Shown here piece after piece: positions 4,205 through 57,203 of a stretch of 64,000 bases of DNA. The translations under genes and the position numbers were made by a program. The DNA comes from Dillenia suffruticosa. Taxonomy: Eukaryota; Streptophyta; Magnoliopsida; Dilleniales; Dilleniaceae. Within the stretch, counting starts at the first letter, position 1. Every line of letters begins with the position of its first letter. Under the pieces are notes generated by a model, which searched no databases, was not told the DNA's origin, and saw only the letters and a program-made list of their open reading frames with translations. The stretch is from the NCBI GenBank assembly GCA_033439265.1, contig JAVTVX010000027.1, forward strand, positions 945,001-1,009,000, read 5' to 3'.

Positions 4205-7200
4205 TATTTTGGACGCAATGGTTTTCTCTTCTTTTAATTAACAAAAGGAAAATTAATTAGTTTAATTAGGTTTTAATTTCTGATTATTGTTTCAACTTTT
4301 GTTGTATTTTATTAAATAATTATTATTTTTTTCCAATTTTTCCTTTTTTAGGTTTTAATTTTGTTTTTTTCGTTTTTCTTTTTGGTTTTTTTACCTCCCT
4401 CGTTCTTATACTTGAGAAGAAAACTTCTGCGGCACGTGCACTGCACCGCCCCTATTTGGCATCTGATTTTCCTTTGTCAAAAAAAGGAAAAAAAACTATA
4501 TTGATAATTAATTCAAAAATTTTTTAACATTAATATTTCCTTTTTTAAATATTCTCAAAACACTTTAATATATTAAATTAATTAATATTTACACAAAATT
4601 CATTATATTTTATATTTAATCATTTTAGATTTTTATTATAAAATATGAATATTTTATTATTTTGATAAAATAATTAATATTTATATAAATATTTTTATAT
4701 TTTTCATACCTACACGTTTGTTTCATTTCTATTTTCTATATTTTTATAAAATATCATTTTTCATTATCATTTCATATTAGTTTCTATTTCCCCATTTTTG
4801 TATGTAATTAGGACTAATCAAAATAGTCTTTTTTTTGTCACAATTATTGTAAAAATCAAACTCAAAATGTCAAATAATAATAATAATAATAATGTGATTC
4901 CTCATTAATTGTGAAATTAGTAATGAAATTATTTATGCGATAAATACATCTGTTTGAAAATTTAATATTAAATTCAGTTAAAATTATTTTTAAAAGAATT
5001 ATTGATTAATGATTTGTAATCTTTAAAAAAAAATCAGATATATTATTATGATTAAATTGAGGTTTCTCAACTGGGCCTCGGCCTTAAGTGGCTCAATGAT
5101 ACTTTGGTCATCCTTTTTACGTAATATTTTTATTTCGAGGGTGTGCCAATTAGTCATAGATAAGGTTATAAATTAATGAGGGGCAGGTATGTGGGACAGG
5201 GTATATTTGTTTGACGAGTACAAGGCGGACCATTTGACACAAGGGGACTGTGATGTGGATATACTGCGAAGCTGACTAGAGGAGAACATTTCATTCCAAT
5301 GGGTATGATTGATGGGTTTTTTTTTTTTTTTAACGATATCTCAAATTATATTTTAATTAATTTGATTTAAATATTTATAAAAATTCTATTTAAAAAAATA
5401 ATTTACTTAATATATATATTTATATATATTTTTTTAAAATTTCAACTTAAGATTTGATTAATATATTTAATATTTTATTTTACTAAATTGATAAACCATT
5501 TCAATTTTTTCTCTCAATAGATGACTTTCCTTGCGCTTGCAAAATTGGCTAATCTTAATCAACAGATCATACTAAGGACCCCTACAAAATTAGGATTACT
5601 TCAATTAAGATTAGATATAAATATAACTCTTAAATATAAAATTTTGTCAATATTATTGAGAAATTTAACATTTGATGGATGGAGGTTAGGGTTAGAACCC
5701 TCTTGAGAGACTCTAACCTCTACCATAAGTATTTGGTTGCCGTTGTGTGTTGTTCGTGTAGTTTTTTTTTCTCTCTCGCATAGGGCGTAAATCTTTATGT
5801 CCGACTTATTTAGAAACTAATTTTAAAAAACTTAATTCAAAACTTTTAAGAAAAAAATAATGGTGTTGATTGAGTTGTAACTCCTTACATTTAAGAATCA
5901 AGTATACCGAATGCTTTTGATGTATTAAAATCTGAGTCTTAAATCGAATGATTCCAAGAATTTGGAATATTGGACAAGAAAGAATTTTATGTGTCGTGAA
6001 CGAAAATATTATTTTATCTATAAAGCCATTTTGTGTATGGTTTCTTGATCCTATAGCTTAGTATGAGCTGGTATTCCTTAAAAGTTTAGGGTGCAACTTT
6101 TGAGTAATTTAAAAATATGGGGTGGGACTAAGTTCTTGTCCATAGACTACTATGCCTTTTGTTTGATACATGAACCTTTAGTCATGGAAAATTTTTGTTC
6201 CCTAAAGAAATTCCAAAAACATTTATTTTTGTTACATGCCTTCGTGTTCGATTTACCTTATGAGAAATTATGTATTTTTAATTTAAAAATGTCTAAAATT
6301 AGATTATTGTGTCTGATTTGTACAAGTAAGGGGCGTTTGATTTACACTTGAAAATCAGAATTATATTTAAACTTAAAGATTTTAAGAATAAATTTGAATT
6401 TCTTAGGTGCATTAATCATACTTTTGTGGATCCAAGCATTTCTCACATTAAATCATCATGACAACAACAATTTGATTTTTTTTATCCAACACTATATATT
6501 TGTACCTCAACTTGATAAATTTTAAAATCAACGGCCAAATAAATCAAAATTTATGTAGAAATTTATATCGATATATTTTTAAAAAATTTTAATCAAATGA
6601 TCGATATCAAAAATCAATTAAAATATTTTATTAGAAGCTATCACCTAAAATTTAATTCATTTTATCTTTGATTCGCTTGATCTTAATAGTGTTACTCATA
6701 TGAGATTAGATATAAATGTACGTATATGATCTTGTTAGAAAAGTCACATTTTCTTTTAAAATCTTTTATATAAATATAGAGAGTAAAAATAATAATAATA
6801 ATAAATCCTTCTTCTTTTTTTCGTTTAACAGAAGAATGATAAATTTAAAATTATATAATAAAAGTAATCCGATTTCATATCATCAATAAAAAATCAGAAT
6901 CATTACTATAATATAAATCCATTCTAATAAAGAAAATTAATGCCCATCATCAGCTCCATTAAAAAAACTATATACTTATATATATATATATATATATATA
7001 CCATCGGTCGGTATCCGGATTACTTCGATTAATCTGACCAAGCATTATGGGGCCTGTTATGAGGTTGATACTCTCAATTTCTGTCTTTTTATTTCTAAAA
7101 TTTAAATTATGAGGATCTAGTGTCCTATTATTACATATACATAAGATTGGTATACTTATCATTATATATTTGCGTTTTTATTTTATATCTTCCGGTATCC

Positions 7201-47296: not shown

Positions 47297-47721
47297 TATA
47301 CTTTTTGTCTTAATCTAATACTAATTTATAACGTATAAAGTCACCTACCCTTTGAGCATAATGCGTATTAGTAGGAGTTGTCTACTCATATGAGATTCAA
47401 GACTGACTAGCGTTTCGAGCGAACTTTTTGTTCCTCAGTCACTGCCTTCTTATCTTCGAAATACATGCAAATAATGCGAAAAATATACAAACACTAAGAA
47501 AAAGTTTTATATTAGATCATCATTCCTAGAACATTCTACTAATGACAAACAAAGTTAAGATTAGAAGTCCATCACAAGTTACAAAGCATTTTTCAAGTAC
47601 CATGGACAGAACCTCACATAACAAACCGGGCTAGAAGACACATAAGCACTTCATAACATCAAAATGAGATTAACCATGATGGAATGAGAATAGCATAACA
47701 TGATTATCAGATAGGATTTGA

Positions 47722-49031
47722 TTAATCCGAAGACCTTCCGATGTAGGAGTTGAGTGTAAGTTCAAGTGATGCTCTAGAAGAACTTCCGGTGGTGTACTCA
47801 TCAGATTGATACCAGCCAGAATGGTAGTGATGACCATATTCATGATGCTTAATGTTGCAAAAACCATTGATGTGATCATCACCATGCATGGGGAATAGTG
47901 GGAGAGTTTCAAGCTCTGGTGCTCTTTCTTCATCTTCTTCTTCATCATCTTCATCTTCTACATCTTCGTCTACTTCATTTTCTCCTTCAACGGATAATTT
48001 TCTCTTGTCGTAAAGATTATTGCATGATGAAGTGTGGGGATCAACACTTGTCCACCCAAAGTTGTGGCTTGTAGAACAATCCTGGAATACAAGATATATA
48101 TGATTTCGTGGGACAAAGGTTTTTTGGCAAAATAGAAGATGGGTCTGCACACACTTTTCTTCCTCTTTTTCGGATAATAATTTAGTAAAAAGGCCATTTT
48201 GTTGCATAGAAGTTAGATTCAAAAGGGGGTTACTATGTGGTATAACAATATCTGCTGCTTTTCTTGTCACTCCTTTTCTATACAACAAAGAAGTAATGAA
48301 TCTACTTTTTCCTAACATGTGCCAATATATAAATCCCTCTTTTTGTGTTTTTGTATATTATTAGGTAATTAGTACTTACTTTGAAGCTTTTCTCCATAGT
48401 CATTGATCCATATCCAAGGGCACCAACCATCTGCCCTAAACCAACAACCCCTGTTGAAGTACATGGAGAAGAAATTCCTGCAAAAGAAAACATCAAAAAG
48501 TTCCCTTTTGAGAGAAGAGAGAGAAACCCCAGAAAGAAATTCTCAAAAAAATCTTACATAGATCCATCAAAAGTACTAACCAGAGGTGATAGTACCAGGG
48601 GGGTACTTGTTGTGAAATGATTCTTGAGCACTTGTTTTCCAAACAACACAAGACGGTGGTAGTGGTGGTGTTTGATGCATGTGATGATCAGGATTGAGAT
48701 TAGGACTAGGATTAGGATTAGGAGTGTGAATGAATCTCTTCTTTTGCCTCTCACGAGCTTTGTGGTTCTGAAACCAATAAAAGACATTCTTGCCCTCGAT
48801 TTTGCCATACTGTCTCAACCTAGCAGAGATCCTCTGAATTTGTTCAGCACTTGGAGACCTAATCCCACTGTTGTAGTATAAATCTTTTAGTATTCTTATT
48901 TGGTCAGATGTTGGTGTCCACCTTGTATTGCTTTGCCTACATAAACTACTACTTAAACTAGCAGTGTTTGCTTTCCCACTCCCTCCACTCATCATCTGAT
49001 CTTCATTTTGATGCTGTTGTTGAGTTTCCAT
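47722..49031 (-). CDS. WUS: WUSCHEL homeodomain transcription factor
   Basis: Stem-cell organiser of shoot and floral meristems; represses or activates target genes and moves between cells. Exons 48581-49031, 48380-48477 and 47722-48081 give 302 residues, close to Arabidopsis WUS (292). The WOX-type homeodomain spans about 36-100 and contains [18 protein letters not shown] and [19 protein letters not shown]. An acidic stretch (about 216-236) is followed by the WUS box TLPLFPMH (242-249) and a C-terminal EAR-like LELTLN (289-294). All three are the hallmark set for WUS; WOX1/6 lack this order. [12 protein letters not shown] at the exon 2 end also fits WUS. The frame stays open upstream of METQQQ to about 49256, but the family start is METQQQ. 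Confidence 0.96.
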
Positions 49032-49094
49032 TTTAACAGAGTGAAAAAAGAAGAAGAAAACAAAGGGAAGAATAAAATCGAATTCACCCACTTG

Positions 49095-49367
49095 AGAGAG
49101 AGAGAGAGAGAGATGAGGGGATCTGTTTGAGATGTTATATTTAGAGAGAAGAGAAGAAGAGGGGAGGGTCACATGGGAGAGGATATCAATGACATCTGAG
49201 AGAGAAGGACTGAAGTTGACAGAGATAAGAGGTTCATAAAAAAAAGGTAGGGACAAACGAGGGTATAGAAAGGAAGGTTTTCAGAGGAATTGCTTGGATC
49301 AAAAGGAATGACAAAATGCATATGTAAAGAGGCTTGAATGAGAGGGAGGGAGAGGGGGAGAGGGAGG

Positions 49368-53242: not shown

Positions 53243-56200
53243 TCAATCATTCAAACTCACTCTAACCCTCCGTCTATTAGCTGGTCCCCTTTCTATCCGC
53301 AGACCAGGCTCTGACCTAAAACCAACTTTCTCAGCAGAATTCCTTGAAGCTGCTGAACCCTCTCGGAGTGGCCTAAGTGCTCGTTTGCTTACACGGCGCT
53401 GGGTTTTTGGAGAATTCAACTTCTTTGACTTGTACTGATCATAGGCCAAGGGTTCAAGCCCTTGTAAATCAGGCTCCGGAGCATAATCAACAGGTCGTTT
53501 GGCTTCCTCCATTCTTCTAAATGTAATTGAAATCCTGAATGTATAAAGGAAGATTAGTTCACCTTTTACAATACAGCAATTTCTCCCAGCAAATTAAAGC
53601 ACCTAGCACAATGTTTGACAACATTTACCTTTTAGTTGGAACTGCAGGAGCACAATGCTTAGCCACATCAGCTCCATTCTCATTTAAGACAAGAACAGAC
53701 CTAGAGAAAGTTATAAGTTATTTAATAGGTGTTTTCTATATACTAAAGAAAACTACAAATTTATGCATTTATTCATCCACATACATAAGGCCTAAAGCAG
53801 GGAAAAAAAACCCTTACCCAACAGGCAATGGAATTGCAGCAGGTCCTGAAAACTACCCATCACTGACAGGCTTCAAGTTTGTTCCGAAGACTATATTACA
53901 TTCACTGAGGAATGAGACCGTGCAGAAAGGACGGACACAATCATGATTGTCAATATGAGGTGGTATACAATCTCCCTCTTCACATATGTTGACTACACAA
54001 CTATCGGGTACACATGCGGGAGGAGGAACATGCCATCTAACTAGCCTCCTGATAATCACCTTGAAAAGATGTGGAATAGGATCAACATTTTCATTCTTCA
54101 GGATACCAGGTTGGTTACCATGTTTATCCTGTCAAGGAATATTAAAATCATGGGCTTCAATTTTCTCATAAGTATATTGTTTTTCACAGTTCTCAAAGAT
54201 ATCACAAAACTATCAAAATTGGCACATCTCTACTTCAGCATGACTCAAGAATAAAATCAGTGGAACGAATTAAGAGAGCTGTACCGTTGCATAGATATAG
54301 CAGCAACCAAATTGAATTGTCACATGACCTTTTCCTCTCTTCCCCTTTGGAGGTGCACTATATGTACGTTCTGGAAGGAAAAACCAAACAAATTACCCAA
54401 ATCATAAAATTCAAAAAATAAATTGTTCAAAAATTACATGATAGAATGTATAAATACAATGATAAGCAGTCAATTTAAAACAATTCCAGGTGTCATTAAA
54501 CCATGGTTCAAAAATTACACAATATAATATATAAATACAATGATCCACAACATTCTTAAGAATACCACTTATCAGGTTAGACCTAAAACAGTTAACATGA
54601 TGGAAGGATATTCAATTAATATTTAATTGCCTCATTTTTATGAGAACTTTTGTGGTGCCCTGCACCTTAAGCAATGGATTTCTTGCACATCAAGGGCTCC
54701 TTTATACTCTAATCAGATTGTTAGGGTTCACCTGGTGCACAAAGTGCTCCCCGACTTAGTACAGGGTAGGGAGAGAGTGGGCATATATGTACGTAGTCTT
54801 CCCCTTGCATTTTTGTAGAGAGACTGTTTCCACGCCTCGAACCCATGACCTCAAGGTCACCAAAGGAGTACTCTAATCAGATTGTTGCCTTGTTTAAATG
54901 CTGGTACCACACTGTGGTCACCTCAGACCATAAGATCATACATATGGTCAGGGTAACCAGAACTTTGAAACAAAGTGACATCTGAGAGCTAATTAAGGGG
55001 GCACTTGTTTACCTGAATATCTTTTTTGGTTGTGCAAAGAACTATTCACATATTAAGAAATGAAACTGCACAAGGAGCACTTTCATATAAAGATTATCAT
55101 GATTGCACTGGGGAAAATTCATATCATATTTCTAAGTATGGATTTCAGTTGCTAAATATGTATCAAAGTATTGTCTATTTCTAATTAGATTGACAAGCAC
55201 AAATGCAATTGCATATCACACACATATTTGACCATTCCAATGAAATGTGGAATGACAATAGGAGAATAGAGAAAGAAGCAGGGGAAGAAGAGAGAGATTA
55301 AAACAGAAATGAGAGAGAAAGATAGGGAGAGGAACACTTCAAAAGTTGGCAGGCACAATCAACACTCTTGTGCACATGTAAGATGGCACAAAAGAAAGAT
55401 AGGGAGAGGAACACTCCAAAAGTTGGCAGGCACAATCAACACTCTTGTGTACATGTAAGATGGCACAAAAACAAGTCACTTGGATGAATATGTCTAAACT
55501 ATCAGATTGAGGTCTGTACTCCATTTCTCAGACTTCAATTGTAATGAAAGTGTTGCTCACAAGCCCATGTGAAGTTAACAGACATAAAAACTCTTATAAC
55601 ATGAAAAGAGGTAAGGCAAACACAAATAAGCATGCCAAACAAACATATATCAAGGAACATTAGAATCAAATGATATACCTCTCAGTTCGCCTTTTGTTCC
55701 CATCTCCTGGAGAGCATAAACATAATCAACAATCCGCTTCTGCTCTGCAGAACTGAAAATGTTTGTGTGCAATTCAAGCCCCTCCAGAATGTTAACAATC
55801 CTTCCATCAACTCTCTCCAGACAAACAAAATTCTTCTTCCTCCTCACATTCATAAAACGAATATACTCCCTCTGTTCTCTTGGCAATTCTACCTTTGGCT
55901 TGATGCTTGCTCCAACTCCCTGCCCACCCTTTTGCAATGGAGTCTGCCCATCAACCAACAACCGGTTGTTTGATTTGTTCACTTCCTCCTCTTCTTCCTG
56001 GTCTTGCTCTAGCTCATCTTCCTTTGCCATGTCAGCCCATGACATTCGAACACTTGGAGAGTCAACCAATTGTGAATCAGGTGGTACATCACGCACAGTA
56101 GTCTGTTCATACCACCCATTGTAACCATCTTTCCAGCTATCTTTCCAACTACCGATTGAATTGGTGTCTGCTCCATCATCTTTCCAACTTCCACCTGTTC

Positions 56201-57203
56201 TCACCGGATTGTGATGGTCCTATATCGACCTCAATTGCTACAAAATCACAGCAAAATAACCATTCCAGTAAGAACAGAAGTTAAAGGGAATCACCATCAC
56301 TTAAAAAAGAAAAGAAAAGAACAGAAAAGAAAAACCCAACCGCCTCCCCAAAGGGAACATTGACTTCAGTAAGAAGATAAGAACAAACATCAATGTCATA
56401 ATTAAACAAAGAAAAAATCTAATAAGTCCTAAAATTAACATTAACATCATTGACAAACCCTAATAAGAATCAGCAATAATGGTCCTATTACAACGGCAAA
56501 ATCTATTCCAGTAAGAACATATGTTAAGAAGGAATCACCGCAACCCTAAACTTAACATAAATATCGTAAAAAACTCCAATCTTAAACAGAAATGGCCAAA
56601 AATCGTAACAATCACCCCCTAGAGAAAAGATCATTGACTTCAATAAGAACATAAGAACAAACATGTAAACCATGATTAAATTAAGAACCAATCAAATAAA
56701 TCCTGAAGTTGATATTAACGTAATTGACAAACCCTAATAAGAAATCAGCAAACAGGGAAAATCATAAATTCTTCTTTTCAGAGAAAGAAAAAAAAAATCT
56801 TCTAAAAGCTTGACTTCATCAACAAGACATATCTAAAACCCAAAAAGAAAACCTTAAAAATCATTAAAAAAAAAAAACTTATCCGAATCAGAAAATCCCA
56901 GAAATAAGTCATAGATTATTATTCAAATAAAAAACAATAGAAAATCTCTAAATACACAAATAAATTCTACGAACCCTAAACAAATAACAAAATAAGAAAC
57001 CATAGAATGAGGGGAAAGAGAGAGAGAGTACCAGGATCGAGAGATCGAATAGAATTGGAGAGATTACAAGTGCAGCTAGTGCAGAGACCTCTGGAGAGAA
57101 AAGGGAACCAAGTGGAGAGAGACTCCGACGCGATTTGGAGCTCTGAATCACTGTACTTGTGAAGAAACGGGTCTTCTTCTCTTCTGGATCGTAGATCGTT
57201 CAT
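53243..57203 (-). CDS. ALKBH9B-like: ALKBH9-type RNA N6-methyladenosine demethylase with an in-frame stop
   Basis: 2OG/Fe(II) dioxygenase of the AlkB family; Arabidopsis ALKBH9B removes m6A from RNA. Exons: 57032-57203, 55679-56194, 54285-54370, 53818-54128, 53629-53700, 53243-53534; 483 codons in total. N-terminus: DPFLHKYSDSELQIASE, then repeated GSWKD motifs and a Glu-rich stretch. Core: HVTIQFGCCYIYAT, iron ligands HID (about His316, Asp318), SECNIVFGTNLKP, VLNENGADVAKH (about His377), TKRISITFRR for 2OG. The C-terminus is basic. Codon 350 (53853-53855) is TAG where relatives have Glu (DG*FSGP). Product made from this frame would lack the distal His and Arg and be inactive. The same TAG lies in a GT that could serve as an alternative donor 39 nt upstream of the usual one, phase preserved. 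The exon 1-2 acceptor (AG at 56195-56196) was picked for phase and is weak. Confidence 0.88.
54424..54545. repeat. Diverged direct repeat in ALKBH9 intron
   Basis: GTTCAAAAATTACATGATAG near 54424 recurs as GTTCAAAAATTACACAATAT near 54507, each followed by TATAAATACAATGAT. Confidence 0.7.
54705..54886 (-). mobile_element. Au-type SINE, 146 bp body, with 18-bp target-site duplication
   Basis: TACTCTAATCAGATTGTT occurs identically at 54705-54722 and 54869-54886. The body (54723-54868) reads on the minus strand GGTGACCTTGAGGTCATGGG, TTCGAGGCGTGGAAACAG, ATGCAAGGGGAAGACTACGTAC and GTGCACCAGGTG in order, the layout of Au SINEs, with the B-box GGGTTCGAGGC. The A-box end seems truncated relative to full Au elements. 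Inserted in sense in the second intron of the ALKBH9-like gene. Confidence 0.85.
55320..55473. repeat. 77-bp tandem duplication in ALKBH9 intron
   Basis: Two copies, 55320-55396 and 55397-55473, nearly identical, each beginning AGATAGGGAGAGGAACACT. Located in the same intron as the Au SINE. Confidence 0.9.

Follow-up and report, generated by a model that had tools for sequence, protein, structure and literature searches.

An ALKBH9-type RNA demethylase gene of Dillenia suffruticosa is very probably a recently decayed duplicate of an intact sister gene

A known counterpart of the gene analyzed here is human ALKBH5. In this enzyme, which PMC3985658 describes, residues ~238-251 take in the last part of the betaIV-V loop and what comes after it, which we infer to be strand V. 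The gene under study, termed A, lies on the minus strand of a window of 64,000 nucleotides (G000:C27:945001-1009000) in the 596-Mb genome of D. suffruticosa, which is contained in 37 contigs. It was compared with three further genes of the same genome, termed B (G000:C12), C (G000:C8) and D (G000:C21). A sequence profile built from B, C and D aligns with human ALKBH5 chains at a best E of 4.8e-18 (PDB 4npl, 4o61, 4nj4 and others), and its HxD motif, N-x-Y motif and distal His align with those of the human protein. Gene A is unlike ALKBH5 in that it has a Cys in the column of Tyr195 and a stop codon ahead of the distal His. Tyr195 was assigned in the profile alignment with the ALKBH5 chains by counting from His204/Asp206.

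A six-frame protein search of the whole genome with exon 4 of A, in which the TAG was read as Glu (E <= 0.01), returned at least five matches, namely A itself, three whole-exon copies and one partial copy on C17; this count covers the best-scored candidates, and more distant copies may exist. The three whole-exon copies contain no stops and share 88% (C12), 70% (C8) and 64% (C21, over residues 2-103) protein identity with A exon 4. On the DNA level, exon 4 yielded at least three matches: besides A itself, these were C21 and, with 90% identity across the full 311 bases, C12. Counting the other copies of what we take to be an ALKBH9 gene, as suggested in an earlier sequence-only reading of this window, thus revealed an intact paralog, B. 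Its exon 4 is located at 911565-911875 of C12 (L017), and its frame is open for 522 aa across six exons of 172, 624, 86, 311, 72 and 304 nt. A likewise possesses six exons, with splice sites matching those of B (Table 1). The C12 region is collinear with the window from about position 48 kb to 64 kb of the latter, introns included, and provides A with an intact homologous copy in collinear surroundings; the identity of A and B amounts to 89-93% in exons and 85-88% in introns. Such an ordered match that extends through the introns is as expected for a whole-genome or segmental duplicate.

We conclude that A, one duplicate of an ALKBH9-type (ALKBH5-like) RNA demethylase gene, has very probably turned into a pseudogene in recent times, while its sister B stayed intact. 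A whole-genome or large segmental duplication would have produced both genes, leaving A free to decay while B on C12 remained intact. A transcript of A, if made, would use the conserved splice sites, reach a stop in exon 2 and either be degraded or yield a short inactive product, and the loss of A probably came late.

Table 1. Position of the features of gene A within the window
Feature	Window positions	Strand	Basis
Exon 1, coding part, from ATG	57032..57203	-	matched to sister B
Exon 2, from acceptor common to A and B	55679..56237	-	comparison with B
Exon 3	54285..54370	-	comparison with copies
Exon 4, 2OG/Fe(II) oxygenase core, 311 nt	53818..54128	-	copies and weak PF13532 match
Exon 5, encodes distal His	53629..53700	-	comparison with copies
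Exon 6, coding part	53243..53534	-	comparison with copies
HID iron motif, intact	53949..53957	-	sequence and residue comparison
In-frame TAG; GAG in B, C and D	53853..53855	-	alignment of copies
GT of the cryptic donor as proposed; B, C and D read AG	53855..53856	-	alignment of copies
TGT (Cys); Tyr of N-x-Y in B, C and D; aligned with ALKBH5 Tyr195	53982..53984	-	
TGT (Cys); Phe (HDF) in B, C and D	53937..53939	-	residue comparison
Net 41-nt loss in exon 2, approximate place	56194..56198	-	exact breakpoints ambiguous
TGA reached after 77 aa with conserved acceptor	56176..56178	-	conceptual frame

Intron 2 of A (minus strand) also differs from that of its sister. Around 164 nt at window positions 54884-54705 are absent from B; CAATCTGATTAGAGTA, 16 nt long, occurs there as a direct repeat (54884-54869 and 54720-54705). 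This insert contains GGGTTCGAG, which resembles a tRNA B box, and looks SINE-like, presumably akin to Au-SINE. A tandem duplication of ~75 nt (TTTGTGCCATCTTACATGT...CCTATCTTTC) is apparent in the same intron at window ~55470-55315, of which B holds one unit only.

As far as the assembled DNA goes, the following is established: the collinearity with C12, the TAG, a loss within exon 2 that shifts the frame relative to the sister, and the Cys in place of a conserved Tyr. Exon 4 of A reads ...GTC AGT GAT GGG TAG TTT TCA GGA CCT..., and the in-frame TAG is located past the HID motif and ahead of the distal His of exon 5, just as the sequence-only reading had claimed. The alternative cut which that reading proposed past 53857, at the GT overlapping the stop, is likewise borne out: it ends in phase 2 like the normal donor past 53818 and removes 39 nt. 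The Glu it expected in relatives at the position of the TAG is present in 3/3 other full-length exon copies found in the genome. What did not hold is the origin of both stop and GT by one base change from GAG to TAG. B, C and D, the three full-length copies compared, read GGA GAG where A reads GGG TAG, with differences at the adjacent bases 53856 and 53855. Since a change of GAG to TAG alone would leave GGATAG without a GT, both base changes are required for the GT, and a one-base origin of the donor was rejected given GGA GAG in all three other full-length copies. Judged from these copies, two neighbouring base changes brought about the GT adjoining the TAG as a side effect. The matching frame is no additional coincidence, because any in-frame TAG after a G yields a phase-2 GT and thus automatically fits ahead of a phase-2 intron; ten single-base changes would make an in-frame TAG in B exon 4, and a G precedes the TAG in one of these.

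A further lesion lies upstream of the TAG in exon 2. It had been missed in the earlier reading, as had the Cys at the N-x-Y Tyr. Compared to B, exon 2 of A is short of a net 41 nt and, in frame, of another 24 nt; at the 3′ end, A is missing 12 nt as well. With the acceptor common to both genes (TTTTGTAG followed by CAATTG), the frame of A is shifted and runs into an early TGA. In the 40 nt from this acceptor to the gap, there are two differences between A and B, each in a third codon position, which fits a former coding role of this stretch in A. On this pattern, we provisionally rejected the alternative that the 41 nt might represent an insertion in B. An alternative acceptor in exon 2 of A (AACAG/GTGG, with AACAG ending at 56195 and the exon starting at 56194) would keep the frame. 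This is unremarkable because the frame is preserved by 6 of the 13 AG cuts in the exon's first 150 nt. The 20 nt ahead of it contain three T and six C, compared to 12 T and one C ahead of the conserved acceptor.

The disabling changes in A hence number more than one, namely the exon-2 frameshift and the TAG, accompanied by the exchange of Tyr to Cys: the 2-oxoglutarate (2OG)-binding motif N-x-Y reads N-I-C in A and N-I-Y in B, C and D. The residues of the HxD...H iron triad are all encoded in A, but not in one product, as the distal His lies past the TAG. When scored against the PF13532 profile, B reaches 46.9 bits (cut-off 31.2), and A exon 4 by itself, with the stop read through, stays under the cut-off with 22.3 bits. 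After exclusion of columns in which B, C or D has a gap or X, there are 26 protein sites at which A and B differ while C and D agree; the required agreement of C and D is a strict filter, D itself being broken. The change falls on the A side at ten of these sites, on the B side at six, and ten are undecided, which is a small surplus of protein changes in A. Those on the A side include the stop, Tyr to Cys, Phe to Cys, Trp to Gly, Asn to Ile and Gly to Glu. The sister B, in contrast, has GGA GAG, the N-x-Y Tyr, the Phe past HID and an exon 2 containing the 41 nt that A lacks.

We determined substitution rates between A and B by Nei-Gojobori counts over 493 codons, with stops and gaps left out. 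This gave a dS of 0.177, a dN of 0.078 and a dN/dS of 0.44 (0.63, 0.40, 0.54, 0.21, 1.45 and 0.76 for exons 1-6). As the ratio is below 1, constraint acted during much of the divergence, so that the inactivation came late or part of the signal is older. Two neighbouring genes, which we take to encode a RanBP2-type zinc-finger and a WUSCHEL-like protein, gave ratios of 0.18 (dS 0.11, dN 0.02; four exon pieces, 223 codons) and 0.32 (dS 0.127, dN 0.04; first part, 150 codons), respectively. The ratio of the ALKBH9 pair is higher than that of both neighbours pooled, as expected for decay, but the difference is non-significant (Fisher p = 0.10). Both duplicated regions have the WUSCHEL-like homeobox gene (window ~47700-49100, minus strand) next to the ALKBH9 copy, with an open frame over its first 150 comparable codons in each.

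Against a pseudogene we counted that the dN/dS of A and B is well under 1 (0.44 overall and 0.21 in exon 4) and that an in-frame cryptic acceptor (ahead of 56194) and donor (past 53857) exist; an in-frame mRNA from A is not impossible. In favor of a pseudogene we counted the close stop-free paralog, the collinear DNA, the exon-2 lesion and a second gene pair with a like outcome.

It appears unlikely that A is a null allele for which the species is still polymorphic, and not a fixed pseudogene: a recent loss agrees with the dN/dS being below 1, but the several lesions together suggest some age. Very unlikely is a rescue by splicing, in which the donor past 53857 would be used, the 39 nt and the stop skipped and a protein 13 residues short be produced. 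The GT is present and its phase fits, and the U1 duplex energy of this donor (-6.0) is at least as favorable as that of three of the other four donors of A (-4.1, -4.4 and -5.8; the fourth -6.8). However, the normal donor 39 nt further on reaches -9.7 and an in-exon GT at 54060 reaches -6.7, so that on this simple U1 measure the cryptic donor is weaker than its near competitor, yet not hopeless. The exon-2 frameshift would persist and demand a second cryptic site, and the 2OG-binding Tyr would still be replaced by Cys. The 13 residues lost would moreover align, by the profile alignment, with ~238-251 of ALKBH5, i.e. the loop end and the presumed strand V described above. Of the four options raised in the sequence-only reading, the null gene is the one supported, while the splicing rescue is not supported. 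The presence of an intact paralog elsewhere is one part of what that reading had itself named as refuting it.

Just as hard to credit is a truly intact gene whose apparent stop codon reflects a mistake in assembly or sequencing. A single assembly was examined, which leaves room for such an error, but the difference at two adjacent bases, the exon-2 loss of net 41 nt and the change of two conserved residues would each have to be erroneous. Since the two adjacent changes and the exon-2 loss are unexplained by a one-base error, sequence error alone was rejected. Even less probable is a joint use of the cryptic acceptor (ahead of 56194) and donor (past 53857), by which an in-frame protein without the 2OG-binding Tyr and a core stretch might provide the intact sister enzyme with a partner lacking activity or with an RNA decoy. 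Readthrough of the stop codon into a full-length protein, for which no supporting point was found, is barely conceivable and was rejected, because the context UAG UUU is unlike the CARYYA-type readthrough context and the frameshift in exon 2 lies upstream.

The decay of A beside an intact sister resembles the situation of the second pair, C and D. These genes match with 84% identity over 2.7 kb (blastn), with a dS of 0.201 and a ratio of 0.42 (248 codons). The frame of C (L019) is open across the first two exons. D (L020, G000:C21:919000-928000, minus strand, ATG at 6431) has lost 14 nt in exon 1 and 1 nt in exon 2, resulting in early stops, and a Pro replaces the Arg of HDFLRPFC. Like A, D is thus a disrupted duplicate whose partner has an open frame; unlike A, it carries other lesions, has no stop in exon 4 and has kept N-x-Y. 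By this comparison it looks as though one copy was kept and one broken in each of two ALKBH9-type pairs.

In titles and abstract beginnings of the papers listed on ALKBH9 splice forms, pseudogenes and duplication, we found no description of this case. Gene A offers no new mechanism but what looks like the ordinary decay of a spare gene. For annotation, it should not enter tallies of working ALKBH9 genes, nor should it be mended with an artificial intron. The locus is a clear example of an RNA-demethylase duplicate that was lost while its sister was kept, and the other ALKBH9-type pair behaves likewise. A like loss in both ALKBH9-type pairs would fit a return to single dosage.
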